From contig JAQGBZ010000034.1 in the NCBI GenBank assembly GCA_034687125.1, forward strand, positions 62,001 through 126,000: 64,000 nucleotides of DNA, read 5' to 3'. Source of the DNA: Neelides folsomi (lineage: Eukaryota; Arthropoda; Collembola; Neelipleona; Neelidae). A program made the position numbers and the translations under genes. The notes beneath the pieces were generated by a model that was not told where the DNA came from, did not search any database, and worked only from the letters and a program-made list of their open reading frames with translations. Below are positions 35,537 to 47,400 of the stretch, one piece after another (the stretch's first letter is position 1; each line of letters begins with the position of its first letter).

Positions 35537-38500
35537 TTACTTGTATTGTGTGTTGAAATTGGTCCTTTCTGCGGAGAAGGTCGTGGCAAATTCTTTGGGT
35601 TGCGGGAGAGCCATTTCGGCCATTTCCTCCGCAATGTTCCTCTTCCTGTACCACCAATACTCGAAGACGAGGGTGAAGCAGGCCATCAAAATCCCAACGA
35701 AAATGACAATGAACACACCGCCAATGTTGTGAATGCTGATTCCATCAGATTGGTTGTCGTCTCGTGGACACGTGGCTTTATTCGGATTATCATTCCACCA
35801 TTGTTCCTTCAATTGTTCCAAATAACGTTGGTTCAACAGCTTTAGAATCCTACATTAGAAAAATATAATTATTATTCAAATAACTACAAATTGTCAATTA
35901 TCATAAGCTAAGCTCAAATTAATCTCAAATTGTCAGCATTAGTAAAGTGGAATTAAGCATTAGTGCGATTAAAACTTCTGTAACAATGTTTATAAGTACA
36001 AGACAGTGATTAATATAAGGATTAAATATTCTATGCATACACTATACATATGCAAGTGTCTTAATATACAAAGGACCAAGACAAGTGTTGAATGCGAACT
36101 TAAAATTCCCCTCTTATGGATTTCTCCTTACGCATCATTTAATTGATCTTTGAGCGGTGATCCTTGTTGGACCGCAAGAGCGTAAGGCTTCCTTGAAAAT
36201 TCCTCTCCGACCATCATGAGGTCACATGAAGTGAGAACTTCATATCGAATGTCCGTTGCATCACCTACAAAATCCTTCACCGATGACAAAAAGCATTGGT
36301 GGAATTCCTCACTTATTTGTGAGATTTAATTAAACAATTCCTTCGCGGTGCGAAGGTATTCAAAAGCCGATGCGAATTTAATAATAGTAATTCCCTTATG
36401 GAATCTCACATTGACCTTCCTAAGTCATTTAAAGGAAGGTTGTTCACATTATAAAAATTAAAATGAGGCCCCGTTAATGAGGGTTTTTCCATTTCGGAAG
36501 TTGTATCTGATTTACATGTGTGAGAGGGATTCCTTCAAAGGGGATCCTTTTTGTACAGCAAGGGCGTAGGGCTTCCTGGAAAATTCCTCTCCGATCTGAT
36601 TGAACTCGCAGTTGGTAATGGTGAGATATTTGACATCCGTCGCTTCCTCTGTCCAACACATTTCACCACTGCCAATAGAAATGAAAGAACTTACCAAGGA
36701 AAGCAAATCCATCAGCGTCAGCTTCTTTCCCTCTCACACGTTCCACGGCCAATGTAAAGTTCTTAGGTGGCGTATTTTCCTGCATGGCTTGCCAAATCTT
36801 GGTAAATTTGTCACTAACGGGATAATCCCACACGGCAAGTTGACTTCTTTCATAATCGCTCATGCTGTCGTTTAAGCTCATGTCTTTCCAAATCCTTCAC
36901 AAATCAAAATTGATTTTAAACATCATTCATAGTAATAAAAGAAATGATAAATAATGTTATAGTTATAATATACTATAGTCTATAGTACATGGCTCCTATT
37001 TACATGTATTTGTACTTGAGTAAAAATTGAAATTATTAGGTTATGTAAGGTTATATAAATTTAATGATGTTATAATTAAATTAACAAACTCATAGAATCG
37101 ATGTTCAATGTGAGCCATTCTATCAAAGTAAATCCATGCCGAGGATCCTTCCACTGGGGCATATTGGATTTTATACTGTTTGCTCAGATCCTCCAGGGAC
37201 TCGATCGGAGCGTCTAAACGCGAAACGGTCAAGAAAGCGGCCAAATTGGCTGTGTAGGATGCAATGATGATGAAACCAAAGAGCCACCAAGTGGCGGCAA
37301 CCAAACGACCAGAAAGATTTTTAGGAGCTTCACCACCGCCCTACAATTACACAAATATTAACCCTGTGAGTATTCATTCATAGTAAAACATTAAATACAT
37401 TAAATGTATTTAATGTTTTACAGGTAGTAGTTAAATATAAAAAAATATTTATAATCAATTCCAAGTCACCTGCGGTGTCAAAGAGGTCATACAAAACCAA
37501 AGACATTCCTTGAGGTTAAACTCCCGCTTTTCCTCATCGTCTTCGTATTTTTCTCGGTTGTTCTGATAGGAATAAGGACTCCAACGGTCAAACACCCACA
37601 TCAGGATACTAGAAAATATACCGTATTTATTCAAATGCTTTCTATAGATATTAAAGTTCAAATTATACTAAATAATAAAAATATCTAAATGTAAATTATA
37701 CTAAATAAAGATATAAACTAAACGTTTGTTGTTGGGGCTGAATGCAACAATAGTCAACGCCATCTTAAAAGATGTTAAGAATCTTCTATTGGGACTTTTT
37801 TGATTGTCTTTCATTTCTCCTTTTGTCATTGCCCTCATTGCATTGTTATTATATATTTGTTATTGTAATATAATAATACCCAAAGTTGTTTGTTTTATTA
37901 CAAAACTATTTTAATGGTCGTTATTGATAATTTATAGAAATGGATTAGCGTAAATGGTTTTCCAATCCAACCAATTAATTATTATGTCTTTTGCCTAATG
38001 GTCACAAAAGAGAATGTATTTTGTTATTCATTTTGATTAATTTTGCAATCAAGATTTGCGCCTTGGTCGAGTTTGTTAAAATCATCATTCTATGTATTTT
38101 CCTATTTTATCAACTCGTTGGCTTCAAATGTCCTTTTCAACTTGGAATAACTCAATAATTCATGTGCATAATTCTTAATGTCTCACTCGGCTTCTCGCTT
38201 TCACTCAATTATGAATTGATCAATATTTGATGAGATCGAAGAGGGACGGGGAAGTAAATATGAAATTCATACTTAACAAAAACACTCTTATTTCTCCCCA
38301 TTAATAAATAATGGAGTCTGTGAAAGGAAATATCCCTAATGGCCATAAACATTAATAAACTGCATGAAACATTGGGGGGAAAGTGTACTTAAAATTCCTT
38401 TTTCTCCTTTTACCATACAAATCCCATTTGAAGAAATTGGAATAAATTAAATGATAATTCAAATCTAAATACAGTGAAACAACACGTCTTTTAATTAATT

Positions 38501-41355
38501 CATTAAAAATAATGAATTTTAATTATCAATTATCTCAAAATAATGAATTTTAAATATCAATCATCTCAAAACACTGTTCAAACTGACCTGGTAAAGAAAT
38601 ATGCTCCGAGGATACACATCCAAACGTCGTTTTCCAAAACAGTAAGAAATTTGAAAAGACTCGTCACCACTTTGGGTTTCCTCATCAGAATGGAAATTCC
38701 CACGAGGTCATAATAAGGAACTGTAAAGTCAACTACGCTTTCCCGCTCAGCCATGACGGACATGGCCCCTAAGGCAATGTCAGCTTTCTAAAATAAATCA
38801 ACAATTAAAATGACCATTTAAAGAAATTCAAACATATAAAGATATTCAAAGGTAAATTAAATAATACATTTATTTATTTAAATTTTAAATAAAGTTTCCC
38901 CTTACGCGATCTTTCAACTCTGCGACCATTCCATTCCAATTGTGTGGAGGCTCAAGGCTCATGTAACCATAATCGACTACAGATCTAATTGTGTAATTGA
39001 ACTTCAAATCCTTTTGAATCTCCGCCAACAAATCGATACAATATCCTTCGAAACAATGATGGTATTTGTCTTTTTCATCTGGCACACAATTTTTCTTCAA
39101 GTAAACAAACGGAGGTTGCTACAAACAAATTTAATTTAATTTAATAAATTAAAAGTCAATTAAATGTATTATGGAACCAAAGGATTATTAGATAAGTATT
39201 CAGAGATTCTTTGTTATTAGCGGATTGTTATATTATGACTTTTTACCACAACGGTCACAATCCGAAATACGGTGTGAGCAATATGGGGGACGAGATCAAG
39301 ACCAGATTTAAAAGTGACAAGTTCAGCGTCTCCAAATCCAGCCGTCCAAAATCCAATATCTGTGCTCCGTACGGGCTAAGAATGATAAAATAATTTAAAT
39401 GTGTATAAAACAGTATAAACACGGTAAATGAACATTTCAATACCGCTTCAGTATTTTCTTTGAATTCCAGTCGAGTAATAGTCATAATAAATTTAGGATA
39501 ATTTTTCCCATTCCCTTCCAAAACAAACGATCCAAAAATGTTGTCATCTCCGGTTTCCCTCAAAGCCGTTATGAAATCAACGTCAAGGGGGCCAGGGGCC
39601 TTAGTAGATTCAAAATTAACACAAGATGTTGGATTCAACGCTGGCCAACTTCCTTTTCCTTTTAATTGCCTAAAAACATTATTAAAACATAAATGGCTGA
39701 ATTGCCATTAATTCCAAATTAATTTATTAGTTATATTTAATAAATTAATTAAACTGACCCAACAGCCAAAAGTGTGTTGACGGTGAGATCGAAATAAAAA
39801 AAGTCCATGAGGGTTGATGGTTGTCCCTGTGACTCAAAATATGACTTTCTCTTTTCTCCTCCCAGTTTGGTAAAATCTGGTTGAAGATGAACGAGATTGA
39901 CCGGAGTTCGACATTGTCCGCATTTTGGAGTCCCCGATATCATGCTCATGGAATACCAAGCAAATTCATCAGAGAAGTAAGGGCCATCTTCGGCCTTCGG
40001 GTCAGACGCTTCCGTGATGACTTGACTAATTTGACTCGGATCGGCTGCAATGAAGAAATTGGAGATGTCGACATGGACCAAACGATGAATTTGTTTCCGA
40101 AGTTCTTTCTCCTCCGACTCGACCTTCGTTAGAAGATGGCGAGTTGGCATATTTTGAAGCAGCGATTTGTACTTATGATACATTTCTATTTATACAAAAA
40201 TGACCTTCTTAATTGACCTCTGACATTTTTTGACCGTTTACCATATTTCTCTCGATCGAACAAAAGGACCGCTGAAGTCATATTCTGAATGTCAACCAAA
40301 GAACGAACCGATTGGACCAAAACGTCGGCTGGTGGGGGAATCTAAACAAACCATTAACTACAATTAACAGTTTTTAACCAACTAACCAATTAATGCTTTA
40401 ATTAATGATTATTAACTAATACAATTAGCATATTAACCAAATAAGCAATTAATGCTGTAATTACTGATTACATATGATTAGATGTCACGAGTGAAAATAC
40501 AAAAATTAAAATTATTAATTTAACCTGAATGAGATATTTTTCTTGTTCCGGTGTTAAATCTCTCCATTCCCTCACATCCCCTTCTTGTCCAAATGTTCCA
40601 GAAACGGTTGGAAGTTGAAGTGACTTGACTATGATTTTGACAGCTTCCGAAGCCACTTCAGCTCTTGTAAGATCCAAGACAACATCCGGTTTGTCCGTTC
40701 CTTTCATGGCCTCATCCACCTGCTTACACACTTACAGGAAAACAAACATTCAAAAATCTTTCTCCTTTTTTATAAAAAAACCCTCACAATCAGAGACGAG
40801 TTTTTGCGGGTCGCCCCCGGTCGATTGGATTTTCGTAACTTTGCCAACTTTCACTCCAAGACTCGGATTTTCTCCGATGAATTTCAAAGCAATGTCCAAA
40901 TCCTTTTCTGCCTGTGCTTCTTGTGTGAAAACAACTGAAGGGGAAAAAATGCATTTTGGAAAAAGTTCAAAATGAACCTCAATAATATTCAAAACATTCC
41001 AACGCTACTTAAAAAATCAAAACGATCCATTTTGGTTCATTTTGAACCCCCAGTGTTATTTTGAACCTCAAGTGCAATTTTAAACCCCAAGTGCAACTTT
41101 AAACCTCAAGAACAAATTTAAACCTCAAGTGTCTTATTAATGTCATTAAGAAACCAATAAGTTTTGTATAAAGTGATCAAATGAGAAGTGTCGTTTAAAA
41201 TGAATTTTAAACTCAATTTATGATTTATTGATGAATATGGTTTTGACCAGTTGAATAATTGAATGAGACTTACGTAAGTTGATCGTTTGCAAATCCTGAG
41301 CTCGACCAATAGTGGCAATGAATAGGGTCAAGAAAAGCCCTTTAGCCCCCACCAT
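35537..41355 (-). CDS. Ir25a: Ionotropic receptor IR25a (chemosensory co-receptor)
   Basis: Glutamate-receptor-like co-receptor for odour, taste, humidity and temperature IRs. Exons in transcript order: 41355-41274, 40934-40782, 40730-40525, 40341-40242, 40185-39759, 39669-39444, 39375-39247, 39118-38906, 38787-38588, 37608-37470, 37340-37090, 36894-36695, then either 36648-36516 or 36264-36132, then 35849-35537; 923 codons. It has a signal peptide ([20 protein letters not shown]), the full amino-terminal domain that distinguishes IR25a from most IRs, S1 ([11 protein letters not shown]...[20 protein letters not shown], keeping the Arg that binds glutamate in iGluRs), pore ([12 protein letters not shown]), TM3 with the [11 protein letters not shown] motif, S2, and the last TM ([28 protein letters not shown]). 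[26 protein letters not shown] matches Drosophila IR25a almost residue for residue where I recall it. Several donors are GTT-type. Confidence 0.96.
36132..36264 (-). other. IR25a alternative exon 13b
   Basis: A 133-bp exon encoding [45 protein letters not shown]. The acceptor is TTTTGTAG and the donor GTAAGG. It enters in phase 1 and leaves in phase 2, exactly as exon 13a does, and joins the last exon as GC+G (Ala). It encodes the part of S2 carrying the acidic ligand-contact position (Asp here) and the first Cys of the conserved S2 disulfide. It is the copy closer to Drosophila IR25a ([10 protein letters not shown]). Confidence 0.9.
36516..36648 (-). other. IR25a alternative exon 13a
   Basis: A 133-bp exon, the same length and phase as 13b, encoding [45 protein letters not shown]. 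The acceptor is GTTGGACAG and the donor GTAAAT. The acidic ligand-contact position is Glu instead of Asp. The stretch [13 protein letters not shown] is identical to 13b. Including both exons would break the reading frame, so one or the other must be chosen. Confidence 0.88.
37609..38587 (-). other. IR25a intron 9
   Basis: A 979-bp AT-rich intron between the first transmembrane segment's two coding exons. Nothing recognisable lies within. Confidence 0.5.
41041..41133. repeat. Minisatellite in IR25a intron 1
   Basis: About four imperfect copies of a unit near AACCTCAAGTGCAATTTTAA. Confidence 0.7.
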
Positions 41356-41431: not shown

Positions 41432-44400
41432 CTACGGGTGGGGGTTTTTCCCCCGCGTTCGTCGAAACTTCTTCACGTATGCCTCAATCAGCTCTTTGAT
41501 CTTACATGGGTTGATCTCTCCCGTTTTGTTGTGACAGATCTATCAATATTCAATTTATATTATTTAATTATACAAATCTCAATTAATTATAAAATATCAT
41601 TAAAATATGGCAACATTATGAATGATACCTTTGGGACTGCCCTTCTGAGAATTTCTTTATATTCCTCCTTATTGATGGCTTTTTTGGAGTAATGGGGTTT
41701 GAGCGAGAGTTTGACTTCTTCCACAACCCGCTCTTGGCGATTCAACTTCTTGAGGAACTTTTCTTTAACTCGGAGCTCCACAGCAGAAGTGGGCAAATCA
41801 TCAGCTCGCAATTCTCCTTCACTCAATCGAACTTCCGTTTTAACCTTCGCTGCTCCTCGTTTTCCAGGTTTCTTTGACCGACGTGGTGGGCGGGTGGGCG
41901 GGGGACCAAAAAGCGTTTCCATCACCGATGCAGGTTTCCCATCCCCGCCAGTTCCACCTTCTCGTGGGGGTTCAAAAAGATCATCGCCATCGGTACTGTT
42001 GGGGGAAAAGGGTGAATCGCCACTTCGCCCTCCGCGACCCAAACGCCCCTCTCCATTTGATGAACCTCGACCCTGAAAAAAATACCATCATGTTCCAATT
42101 TCCAATTTCTCATATATTCAAGTTCATCAAAATTTCCCATCCCTCAACATTATTCGAAATTCTCACAATTTTAGTTTTAAAACCCTTTATTTGATATAAA
42201 GGAATAAAAGTATATCTAATAATAATAATAAATTCAATTCGTCAGGGTTTCGACCATTGAAAAGAGATAAATTGATCGAGGGGGTCGTAAAAAATTCAAA
42301 GCTCGACTCGAAATTAAGTGAAACCCAACTTGTGAGTTGACACGTCTTTTATAATTCACATTCAATAAACCTCGTTCGTGCAAGGGAACATTAATTATTC
42401 AACTCATCCATTTCAACGAGGTCCGGAAAAAAAGTGATACACCTAATAAAACCCACGCCACTCATAACCTACTAAAAAACCCCATCTAAAAACCATGCAA
42501 TTTCTAAACCGTCGTCACTTCAAAACTTTATCCAATAATTTATCAATATCATATACCTACACTCAAATCATCAACCATAACGTCCTACAAAAACAAATAT
42601 ATGTCAAAATGCGAAATAACTTTGTTTAACAAACAGCTCAATAACTTGTCTAAATGAAATACAATTTTATCTATTTCTACAATGGATAAAATAAATATAA
42701 TAAATATGTTAAATACATATTATATACATATAATACATATTTAATTCATATCTTAATCAACTCCATATTTAACTATGGCAGCTTTTGTTATGTTATTAAT
42801 GTTATTTAAAATTTATGTAGTTAAGCTAAGGTTATTTAATTAATAATAATTTCTTACATCTTTGAATATGGGATTCGAGTGTTGGCGAGGTTTTTGTTGA
42901 GTAATTTTGGGTATGGGCGGTCTAAAGAGGGGGGCATAGGTGAGAGCGCTTGAAATTGTTGCGAGGACGTTTGAGCTAATCAGCTGAGGTCCACGTGAAG
43001 TGTCTTTTAAAACCCCGCCAGAATTGAGAACGGGGACAGGTGGGGGTTTGAGGGGTGGTTGTGGGGAGGACACCGGCGACCCCCCGCCATCCTCCACATC
43101 CCTCGATGATGACACCCCCGTGTCGGACCGTGGGGGTGAGGGGAGTCGGGGTGGGGAGGGGGGTTGGGGTTCGGTGCTGTCAGCCGCCATCAGTCGCTCG
43201 TCCTCTTCATCGTCACTCAGAGTAATCAATGTGGGAGAAGCTCCAATCGAACGCTCTTGAGCTGGAGAACTAAAAATAAAATATTTTAAATGACATATCC
43301 ATTTAAAATTAATAAATTAAATTAACACATAAAATTACTAAATTATTAAAAATTGAATTATTAGAATTAAATTAATTAAAACTCATTTCTACCTTGCTAG
43401 GTCAACAAGCAGAGTTTTCTTAGGAACCTTTCGATTTTCTTTCCGTCGTTCTGACTCCTTTTTACGCTCCCCTTCTCCTTCCTATTCATAAAAAATATTT
43501 AAACTATTAATATTTTGAATTAAATCACAATTAATAATTAAGATATGAAGAGTTCATAAAATGACCTGAGTGAGCTGAAGGTCATTTGGAGGAGGATCAG
43601 GTTCCTTTTGCTTTTGTGCAAAAGAGAGGGAAACAACGATTGAGTCCCCAGTGGCAAAAATGGCTTTAGCCGGTGAGAGCGATCTTTCCCTCTTCTTTTT
43701 TTTCTTCTTCTTTTCTTTCAAAGAATCACGCAAATCTCCTTCTTTGCGATTTTTCTCTCTTTTCCTTTTCCCAGCAGGTGAAGAAGAATTGGAGCGACGA
43801 CGATCTTTTTGTTTTCGACTCACACTACGCTTTTCTCTTTTATTGCCCCTTTGCCCGCTGCTTCTTGAACGATCAGCACTTGGTGAACGACATGTTCTTC
43901 TCCTTTGGAATTAATAAAATTTGGAATAAAAATATGAAAGATTATAAGATGAATAATTTACCTTTGTGGTGATGTTGAATGAGATTTGCGTTTGCGTTTC
44001 GGACTCTCAGACTTTCGCTTTTTATCTTCAGACTTCTCAATGTTGTCCCGATTGGGTTTTTCTCTAAAATAGCGATCTTCCCCTTTCGGTTTCCCATCCC
44101 TGTAATTTCTATCTTTGGACGCCTTGGAAGGTTTTTTCCAAAGCGTGTTGTCATCATTAGAGGAACTTTTGTCTCGTCGACGCTTCTTGCCCTTCTTTCG
44201 CTTCCCCTTGCGTCTGAGAGGTCGCGTCGCTTCGACAATTTCCCCTTCTTCGAAATGTGAAGAAGAAGAGGACACGGCCCCAATGACTCGGATAGGCGAC
44301 GAGGACTCCTCAGACTCATCAGGCTAAAACAATATTTAAAATATTAATTCAAAAATATAAGGTATAGTTGAAGAATACTGGGACGAGCGATATTAAATAT

Positions 44401-47400
44401 AAGGTGAGTGATTTTACACTAATTCGACTATGCTAATTACGAATCTGAAGTTAGTTTGCGTCGCTCGCGTAAAATAAAAAAGTTATGAGCATTTAAACTT
44501 TAAATTCCACCTTCAATTTTCTCTTTCCTTTCATTTCTGAAAATCCTTTTCATTTTTCCATGTTCATTTCTTTCTTTTCAACTTTAATTTTACGATTGGT
44601 TAATCGATTTGTTTTATTATTTTAATTTATTTTATATATTTTTTTAATTCTGGTTTATATTTATATTATGTTAGGTTAGGTTAAGAAGAATACTTTTCTA
44701 TTTGGATATTTGGTTTTTAATGTGTTTATTAAAAGGCAACAACTCTAGATCGCTTTACCATTTTCTGCCTATACGCACACATGATTAGTAAAACTTTAAA
44801 TATTCATAACTTTTTTATTTTACGCGAGCGACGCAACTAGCTTCAGATTCGTAATTAGCATAGTCGAATTAGTGTAAAAACACTCAACTTATATTTAATA
44901 TCCGTCCCAGCATTCTTCAATTATTCCAAATATAATTAATAATTGAATTTCAAATTAATTAAATCAAAATAATGTTATAAAAATGGAGATTTATTAATTT
45001 TTTAATTTACCCGGTTGTTAGTTGAGCCAACAATGGGCGCTGTTGCTATGGGCGTTGTTGTTGTTATGGGCGGTGTTGTTGTCGTAGTCGGAATTTTTTG
45101 GGGTGGGGTAACTACAGGCACGGTGTTGTTGTTGACGGTCGAAGAATCAGCAATTGTGGGAGCGAAAAGAGAATTTTGTTGTTCTTCCTCATCCATGCCG
45201 AAGAGCGTGGCAAGGAGATGGGAAGAGTCTTGAAGGATTGGTTTGGGAGAAGTGTTGCCAAAAGCCTTTTTCACATCCGCGTCCACATCTCGTCCCGCCC
45301 CCTTCCCTTCTTTCTTCATCACTCCTCGCTGACGACAAAGAAGGCTGCTGATGGGGACGAGACGATGACGTGTAGGGATGGAAAATTGAATGGTCGGACG
45401 GCGGGTCTCGTCAGGTGGAGGATTCCAATTCTCCGCTGCTTCTTCTTCGGATGAGTTCAGCGGCTGCGAGGGGTCATATTCTTCCGGGGGAGGAGGAAGA
45501 GGAATCGAAATGTCTTCAGTCCCTTCGTCAATCACCATTTCATTCAAAGAATCTTCATTCGGAGATTTTTCTCCACCTCTTAAATTCTTTCGGCGTTTCT
45601 TCCTCACTCCGCCTTCTGGAATTAAAAATTAAAATTAATGAAAAATCAGGAACAATAATTAGGGAAATTGTCATTATTTAAATGATTTAGTTAATTAAAC
45701 GAATATCTAATTTAAATGAGTTTTTAGTTAATTAAAACCAATTTACTATATAAATTTTTCTACCTTCAAGGTCAGAATAAATGTCGAATTCTTCATTTGG
45801 AGGTTGCTGAGTTTGTGTGGGGGCAGATGAGGTCGAGGACTCGGGAGCTGTCACAGAAGAATTGTGAACATCCGAATTTCCATTCCTCGGCGGTGTTGGG
45901 GAAGATTGTGGGTGGGTCGGGGGGACGACAGCTGCTCCCCCGTCAGTTCCTAAAAGAGGGGCGAAGGCAGGTGAAGGCACCAACGTCCCATCTCGTTCAA
46001 TTCGCATATCTCGATCTTCGTGAAGGACGCGTTGACGGGCCAAGATCGACCCGAGAACATCGGTCACAATTGGTTTGACTAACCGACGAGGGCGGCGAAC
46101 GATTGAAACTCGTGTCCCTTCACCGTCAGACCTTTAATCAAATATTCAATTCAATTATAAAAACTATTCGTTTTATACAACCTTAATATTAATTTCTAAA
46201 ATTTCATTGAATACTATTTCAATGAAAATTGTTTAAATTGATTAGACAATAAAAATCTTAAAAATTTCGAAAAGGATGAATTAAATCGATTTAGGAAAAC
46301 AATGCCAATGAAATTCCAAATTTAAATTAATTAAAAATTAAAAATTTAAATGAATTAAAAATTGGGAATTTAAGTTAATTAAAAGTCCTTACCATTCTTC
46401 CTCATGTTGTTGAGGCGAAGGTGAACGAGAAGGTGAGAAAAGCACACCGGGCGGTGAATGTCGAATGCTGAGTGGCGCAATGCCAGAAGAACTTCTCATG
46501 AGGGAAAGTTGACAAGAAGGTTGTCGTCTACTTGTGCCCACTCGGCGGCTTTTCCTCTTCGCTCCTCTTTTCTTCTTCCGTCCGACTCTCCTCTTTCGAG
46601 TTTTTCTCCTACGAGGGGAGAGAGGGGCGGCTCGGGGTTGAAAGGAAGAGGACTCGATGAGGGAAAGGGCAGAGGGAATTTCGGCCGCTCGGGTCCTTCG
46701 GATCTCCCGAATGATCCGATCCGAGAGAACAGTTCTGGTCACGCGGGGTTCGTACAATTCGGTTGGAGAACTCGGCGAAACACTTGGGACACAAGTTGGA
46801 CAAAACCAATCCCCCATGGGGACGTTGGTGAGCGGCGGAGTGCAGCATTCGAGATGAATCCCTTTGTCACAACCATCACAGAGTAAAAGACGATCCTGGG
46901 ACCAAAAATTAAAAATCAATTATAAAATTAAAGTCTAAAAATTAAAAATTACTAAAAAACCATATCCCTCAAAATTTCTTGTTTTAATTAGTTTTAATTA
47001 AATTGTACCTCGAAATTGGAGCTGCCACACACTTCGCAAAATGTGAGTTCAAGAGGTTGTTCATTAATTTGAGCAGGGAGAACGGGTTCCCTTCGAGTTT
47101 CCTCTCCGGTGGCAAAGTCACGGACGGATACCTCATTAAACGTCAGGCGATCCACAGGGCAAGTGTTGACCTTCTGTTGGCACCAAGATATTTAATATCC
47201 TATATTTCTTCTGCCCGTCAAAGTCCTTACCTTGGCCCACTCGAGAAGACAAACGATGCAGAAGGCGTGTTCACAAGGGCCAGGAACTCCGATGACCCCT
47301 CCGAGTCTTTGGAGACAAATGGGACACCGCGGGTCGTCGGAGTCCGACGATCCCGACGAAGACTCCTCGTCCCACTCCTCCCCGCCTTCTTCTGACTCCT

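Follow-up and report, generated by a model that had tools for sequence, protein, structure and literature searches.

The IR25a-type co-receptor gene on the minus strand of the analysed window (the whole stretch of 64,000 nucleotides from Neelides folsomi) contains two real, well-preserved alternative exons, 13a and 13b, each encoding its own version of one segment of the ligand-binding lobe S2; the two are very likely mutually exclusive. We hold with considerable confidence that the best explanation is a duplicated exon 13 whose copies have become two selected, mutually exclusive alternatives. A stronger reading, on which we are evenly divided, is that regulated mutually exclusive splicing, set by cell type or stage, would let one gene yield two IR25a co-receptors of different function, altering the ligand-contact position and the dimer apex in a flip/flop-like manner that would have evolved independently of vertebrate AMPA receptors.

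The gene model is complete, running from an ATG at 41355 to a TAA stop ending at 35537, with introns of 46-979 nt (Table 1). Isoform A (carrying 13a) and isoform B (carrying 13b) are both 921 aa long and free of internal stops, and about 430 aa precede S1, forming a long N-terminal domain. The protein matched the Pfam families Lig_chan (7e-43) and Lig_chan-Glu_bd (4e-32), and no Pfam family was reached by its amino-terminal domain in this search. By sequence, the closest solved structures are those of kainate receptors. Exon 12 carries an insert resembling the extra loop of the co-receptors, which has been reported to span 30-35 residues near the S2 start, to contain one N-glycosylation motif and to be missing from iGluRs (PMC6472016); between the aligned blocks, the IR25a protein has 54 residues where GluK2 has 20, that is, 34 extra residues including an NFT motif. 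The related co-receptor IR8a retains the whole glutamate triad of Arg, Thr and Asp/Glu (PMC7882480). In the present protein, the Arg is aligned within AERESVVDF and the Asp or Glu is supplied by exon 13, while an Ala aligns with T690 of GluK2, leaving the triad, unlike that of IR8a, incomplete. Because of the extra loop with its NFT and the triad without Thr, the gene is best called an IR25a co-receptor. The second disulfide Cys, the last transmembrane helix and the C-terminus are encoded by exon 14. Relatives of the gene were absent from the viral and prokaryote contig collections, and no RNA families or tRNAs were found.

Table 1. Window coordinates of the IR25a-type gene and of the exons and introns around the alternative pair
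Feature	Position	Strand	Remarks
IR25a-type co-receptor gene, 14 coding exons and 1 alternative	35537..41355	(-)	splice-consistent exons; Pfam
Exon 12, common to both isoforms	36695..36894	(-)	phase 1 donor TTG/GTAAGT; end of first part of S2
Intron ahead of 13a, 46 nt	36649..36694	(-)	shorter than the other introns measured; acceptor weak, with 6 of 17 positions pyrimidine
Exon 13a, alternative S2 segment, 133 nt	36516..36648	(-)	first and last codons shared with neighbouring exons
Intron between 13a and 13b, 251 nt	36265..36515	(-)	folding compared with shuffles
Exon 13b, alternative S2 segment, 133 nt	36132..36264	(-)	gene model
Intron following 13b, 282 nt	35850..36131	(-)	fold unremarkable
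Exon 14, common to both isoforms	35537..35849	(-)	phase 2 acceptor; end of S2

An earlier note on this DNA had described two tandem 133-bp exons and had argued that including or skipping both breaks the reading frame. When we rebuilt the gene, the coordinates, phases and peptides given for the two exons were all correct, and the frame argument was confirmed. The exons are tandem, homologous, equal in phase (phase 1 at the start and phase 2 at the end, with GT-AG borders) and of a length indivisible by 3, the features that mark a mutually exclusive pair. With both included, the frame meets a stop after residue 818, which lies 132 nt upstream of the last junction; with both skipped, it ends after residue 775, at a stop within the last exon. 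Splicing errors of either kind are clearly non-productive. The double-inclusion transcript would be a good substrate for nonsense-mediated decay (NMD); the skipping product would escape junction-dependent NMD because its stop sits in the last exon, leaving a truncated protein. The similarity between 13a and 13b is far beyond chance, as their match scored 63 bits, and none of those arising by chance in 30 shuffled windows exceeded 21.6 bits. No second copy of any other IR25a exon was present in the window.

The two copies are identical at 26 of 45 residues and 80 of 133 bases, corresponding to ~40% nucleotide divergence. Nei-Gojobori comparison gave dN 0.39 and dS 2.23 over the whole exon, and dN 0.05 and dS 1.33 over codons 20-38, where change was almost all silent; exact dN/dS values are rough, with dS near saturation and 45 codons only. 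The differences within codons 20-39 were distributed over codon positions 1, 2 and 3 as 2, 0 and 9. In unconstrained simulations run to the same divergence, about 9% of the sequences stayed free of stops, and none of 20000 kept at least 18 of the 19 core residues. The substitution pattern and the simulations therefore indicate that selection has acted on both copies at the protein level ever since they arose by an old duplication and that neither is decaying. This comparison of synonymous and replacement change had been proposed as a check on the exon pair, and the mostly silent change in codons 20-38 argues against a dead duplicate. The near-saturated dS further suggests that the duplication of exon 13 is old.

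The swapped block comprises 44 residues of S2, aligned to GluK2 738-781, and the second S2 segment matched solved kainate receptors almost equally well in the two versions, at 70.1 and 66.9 bits, with E738 and C750 aligned in both. We considered whether 13a is the glutamate-receptor-like copy and rejected this, as it scored better on GluK2 (slightly) and worse on GluA1 and GluA2, with no general trend. As a lead, 13b seems closer than 13a to the usual insect IR25a sequence (GDATDIRY...). On the alignment to GluK2, the varying residues form two clusters around an unchanged core of 14 residues. The first cluster runs from position 738 through a strand and loop to 755, with Cys750 retained in both versions; the residue aligned with the glutamate-contacting Glu738 is Glu in 13a and Asp in 13b, and the loop ahead of the conserved Cys is rewritten, both as previously claimed. 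The second cluster, in GluK2 numbering, comprises 770 (Lys/Gln), 776 (Glu/Asp), 777, 779 (Ser/Asn), 780 and 781. In GluK2 itself, Glu738 touches the ligand, the apex of the ligand-binding-domain dimer includes R775, D776 and T779, and D776K abolishes desensitization, while the AMPA receptor residue matching D776 varies between flip and flop (PMC3866869). The earlier emphasis on ligand binding was thus one-sided: the swap does fall at the position aligned with E738, but the second cluster falls at the dimer apex and the triad Thr is missing. The Glu/Asp swaps at key positions are conservative, which speaks against the model set out below. Since the Thr is absent, an acid is kept in both versions and the second cluster lies at the apex, an effect on gating, dimer stability, assembly or partner choice seems at least as likely as a change of ligand.

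Both exons had been credited with good splice sites, which holds for the donors and fails for the acceptors. Using a small matrix trained on the window, with 19 acceptors from IR25a and the neighbouring same-strand gene, we found that the acceptor of 13a was the weakest of the 19 and that of 13b among the weakest. Weak alternative acceptors would suit regulated exons. Because the acceptor of 13b is stronger than that of 13a, 13b may be the default exon, and the poor acceptor of 13a together with its 46-nt upstream intron means that 13a could be spliced rarely. Devices known to keep such exons apart are a very short intervening intron, mixed U2/U12 sites and competing RNA pairs. The intron between the two exons is not short enough to bar their joining, and all sites are GT-AG. 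This intron, which contains the inverted repeats TGTGAGATT/AATCTCACA and GCGAAGG, folded better than its shuffles each time in two runs (z -3.4, then -2.8); however, introns 5-6 and 10-11 of the same gene, both constitutive, fold at z -3.6, so its folding is not specific and we did not adopt the structure as the exclusion device. Intron-intron RNA duplexes, considered as docking pairs, were no better than mononucleotide shuffles. Separately, TGTTGGAC, immediately upstream of the 13a acceptor (36651-36670), is complementary to GTCCAACA within 13b (36153-36172) over arms of 20 nt at 75%, and the matching sequence is missing from 13a. This pairing could possibly hide the 13a acceptor; it is short and perhaps due to chance. 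The hexamer TCTCAC occurs four times across 13a, 13b and the intervening intron (minus-strand starts 36626, 36525, 36324 and 36236) and is a possible splicing element, chosen by eye and of doubtful significance.

Taken together, these results are consistent with a model in which exon 13 was duplicated in tandem long ago and the two copies, now alternative exons, were both retained by selection. The spliceosome would link exon 12 to one of the pair, 13a or 13b, and that one in turn to exon 14, and the non-productive transcripts with both exons or neither would enforce mutual exclusion at the protein level. The resulting isoforms would have the amino-terminal domain, lobe S1 and the channel in common and differ in the 44-residue S2 block, where the swap would alter the Glu738-aligned acid, the strand and loop leading to the disulfide Cys, and the start of the dimer-apex helix (GluK2 770, 776, 777, 779-781). 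By analogy with AMPA flip/flop, the likeliest effect would be altered closure, desensitization or choice of heteromer partner, not a wholesale change of ligand. From the sequence, we infer that both 13a and 13b are transcribed and that the choice between them is probably regulated.

The evidence for constraint bears directly on two other accounts of 13a. It might be a dead or cryptic duplicate with 13b as the sole exon used, which would agree with an acceptor that is the weakest of 19 and an upstream intron that is the shortest; yet 13a carries neither a stop nor a frameshift despite 40% nucleotide divergence, an outcome that chance would give in about 9% of cases. It also retains 18 of 19 core residues (0/20000 neutral simulations), its borders and both donors are intact, and it fits GluK2 slightly better than 13b does. 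We therefore regard a dead 13a as unlikely. The pair might instead act as a productive/non-productive switch, with double inclusion tuning the IR25a level and the 13a protein being of little importance. The double-inclusion stop 132 nt before the last junction and the weak acceptors would allow this; a pure poison exon, however, needs no protein-level constraint, yet 13a shows it, and the skipping stop, being in the last exon, would escape junction-dependent NMD, which makes such a switch quite improbable. That the two exons are an assembly artefact, with two alleles or paralogues joined, is barely credible given the 40% divergence, the unique flanking introns and the single, shared exons 12 and 14, and we found nothing in its support. 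Retention of both copies as selected, mutually exclusive alternatives thus stays the preferred reading.

The arrangement resembles the flip/flop exons of the AMPA receptors (GluA1-4) in having two adjacent, equal-length, mutually exclusive exons for a stretch of S2 of an ionotropic glutamate receptor, the exclusivity being predicted in our case. The flip/flop exons are shifted slightly downstream, in the direction of the last membrane helix, and leave the ligand-contacting Glu untouched. In contrast, the IR25a block (GluK2 738-781) begins at the ligand-contacting residue and reaches the start of flip/flop with no more than its last residues. Because the exon borders relative to S2 do not coincide, the IR25a pair looks like an invention independent of flip/flop. 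In both systems, the dimer-apex position aligned with D776 of GluK2 varies between the versions (PMC3866869). If the model is correct, it would add a second case of S2 exon swapping, independent of flip/flop and parallel to it. Many IR complexes depend on IR25a, in sensing odours, tastes, humidity and temperature, and the role of its own ligand-binding domain is unclear (PMC6472016); two natural versions that differ in a single 44-residue block would offer a ready-made experiment on that role.

Exon-swapped IR25a variants had been thought undescribed, a claim that the literature does not bear out as worded. For the copepod Eurytemora affinis, the main text of Robertson 2017 refers to 'an alternative-splicing arrangement in IR25a' (PMC5714493), a likeness to the present gene within the same receptor. 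The copepod IR25a has 34 coding exons in 90 kb, compared with 14 + 1 in about 6 kb here, and that main text gives neither the alternating exon nor the protein region concerned (PMC5714493). IR25a is also multi-copy in some arthropods, with four copies in the dipluran Campodea augens (PMC6938034), five in trombidid mites and three in Tetranychus urticae (PMC6275457); these duplications likewise provide more than one IR25a protein per animal, but as whole-gene copies with no single swapped exon. At insect odorant and gustatory receptor loci, for example in Blattella, several receptors arise through exon choice (PMC6175461), where long first exons with their own starts join a common C-terminus, whereas the IR25a swap affects an internal cassette of a co-receptor. 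It is thus already known that one animal can have more than one IR25a protein, and alternative splicing of IR25a is not without precedent. In the papers searched in full text, which leave out most subscription journals, we found no fully characterised exon pair spanning the ligand-contact residue and the dimer apex. The pair could be the same ancient arthropod arrangement as in E. affinis, which is compatible with the best explanation and bears on novelty. Robertson 2017 lists the IR25a arrangement among introns (PMC5714493), and the near-saturated dS suggests an old duplication; on the other hand, the exon is not named in the main text of that paper, and alternative splicing of IR25a is not mentioned in the other papers searched. 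We consider a shared ancient origin possible, while leaning somewhat against it.

The window is compact between 26000 and 62000. In this part we also identified, on the minus strand, a rhodopsin-family GPCR and a PHD-finger gene and, on the plus strand, a PARP catalytic domain, liprin-alpha and a TPR-repeat protein that looks like CTR9 by inspection. Upstream of IR25a on the same strand is a gene that is PHRF1-like by inspection of its C-terminus and matches a PHD finger further upstream; the stop codon of this gene lies only about 76 nt ahead of the IR25a ATG (41434-41355). An AATAAA stands between stop codon and ATG, and an acceptor-like tract with AAG at its end runs directly up to the ATG. 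The arrangement could reflect a 5'-UTR intron, trans-splicing or an operon-like pair. An intron of the PHRF1-like gene (45010-44324) contains a long, nearly perfect inverted repeat at 44355-44933, with arms matching at 96% (44389-44456/44835-44902) and 93% (44456-44501/44791-44836); the repeat folds far below its shuffles (z about -17) and looks like a recent hairpin-type mobile element.
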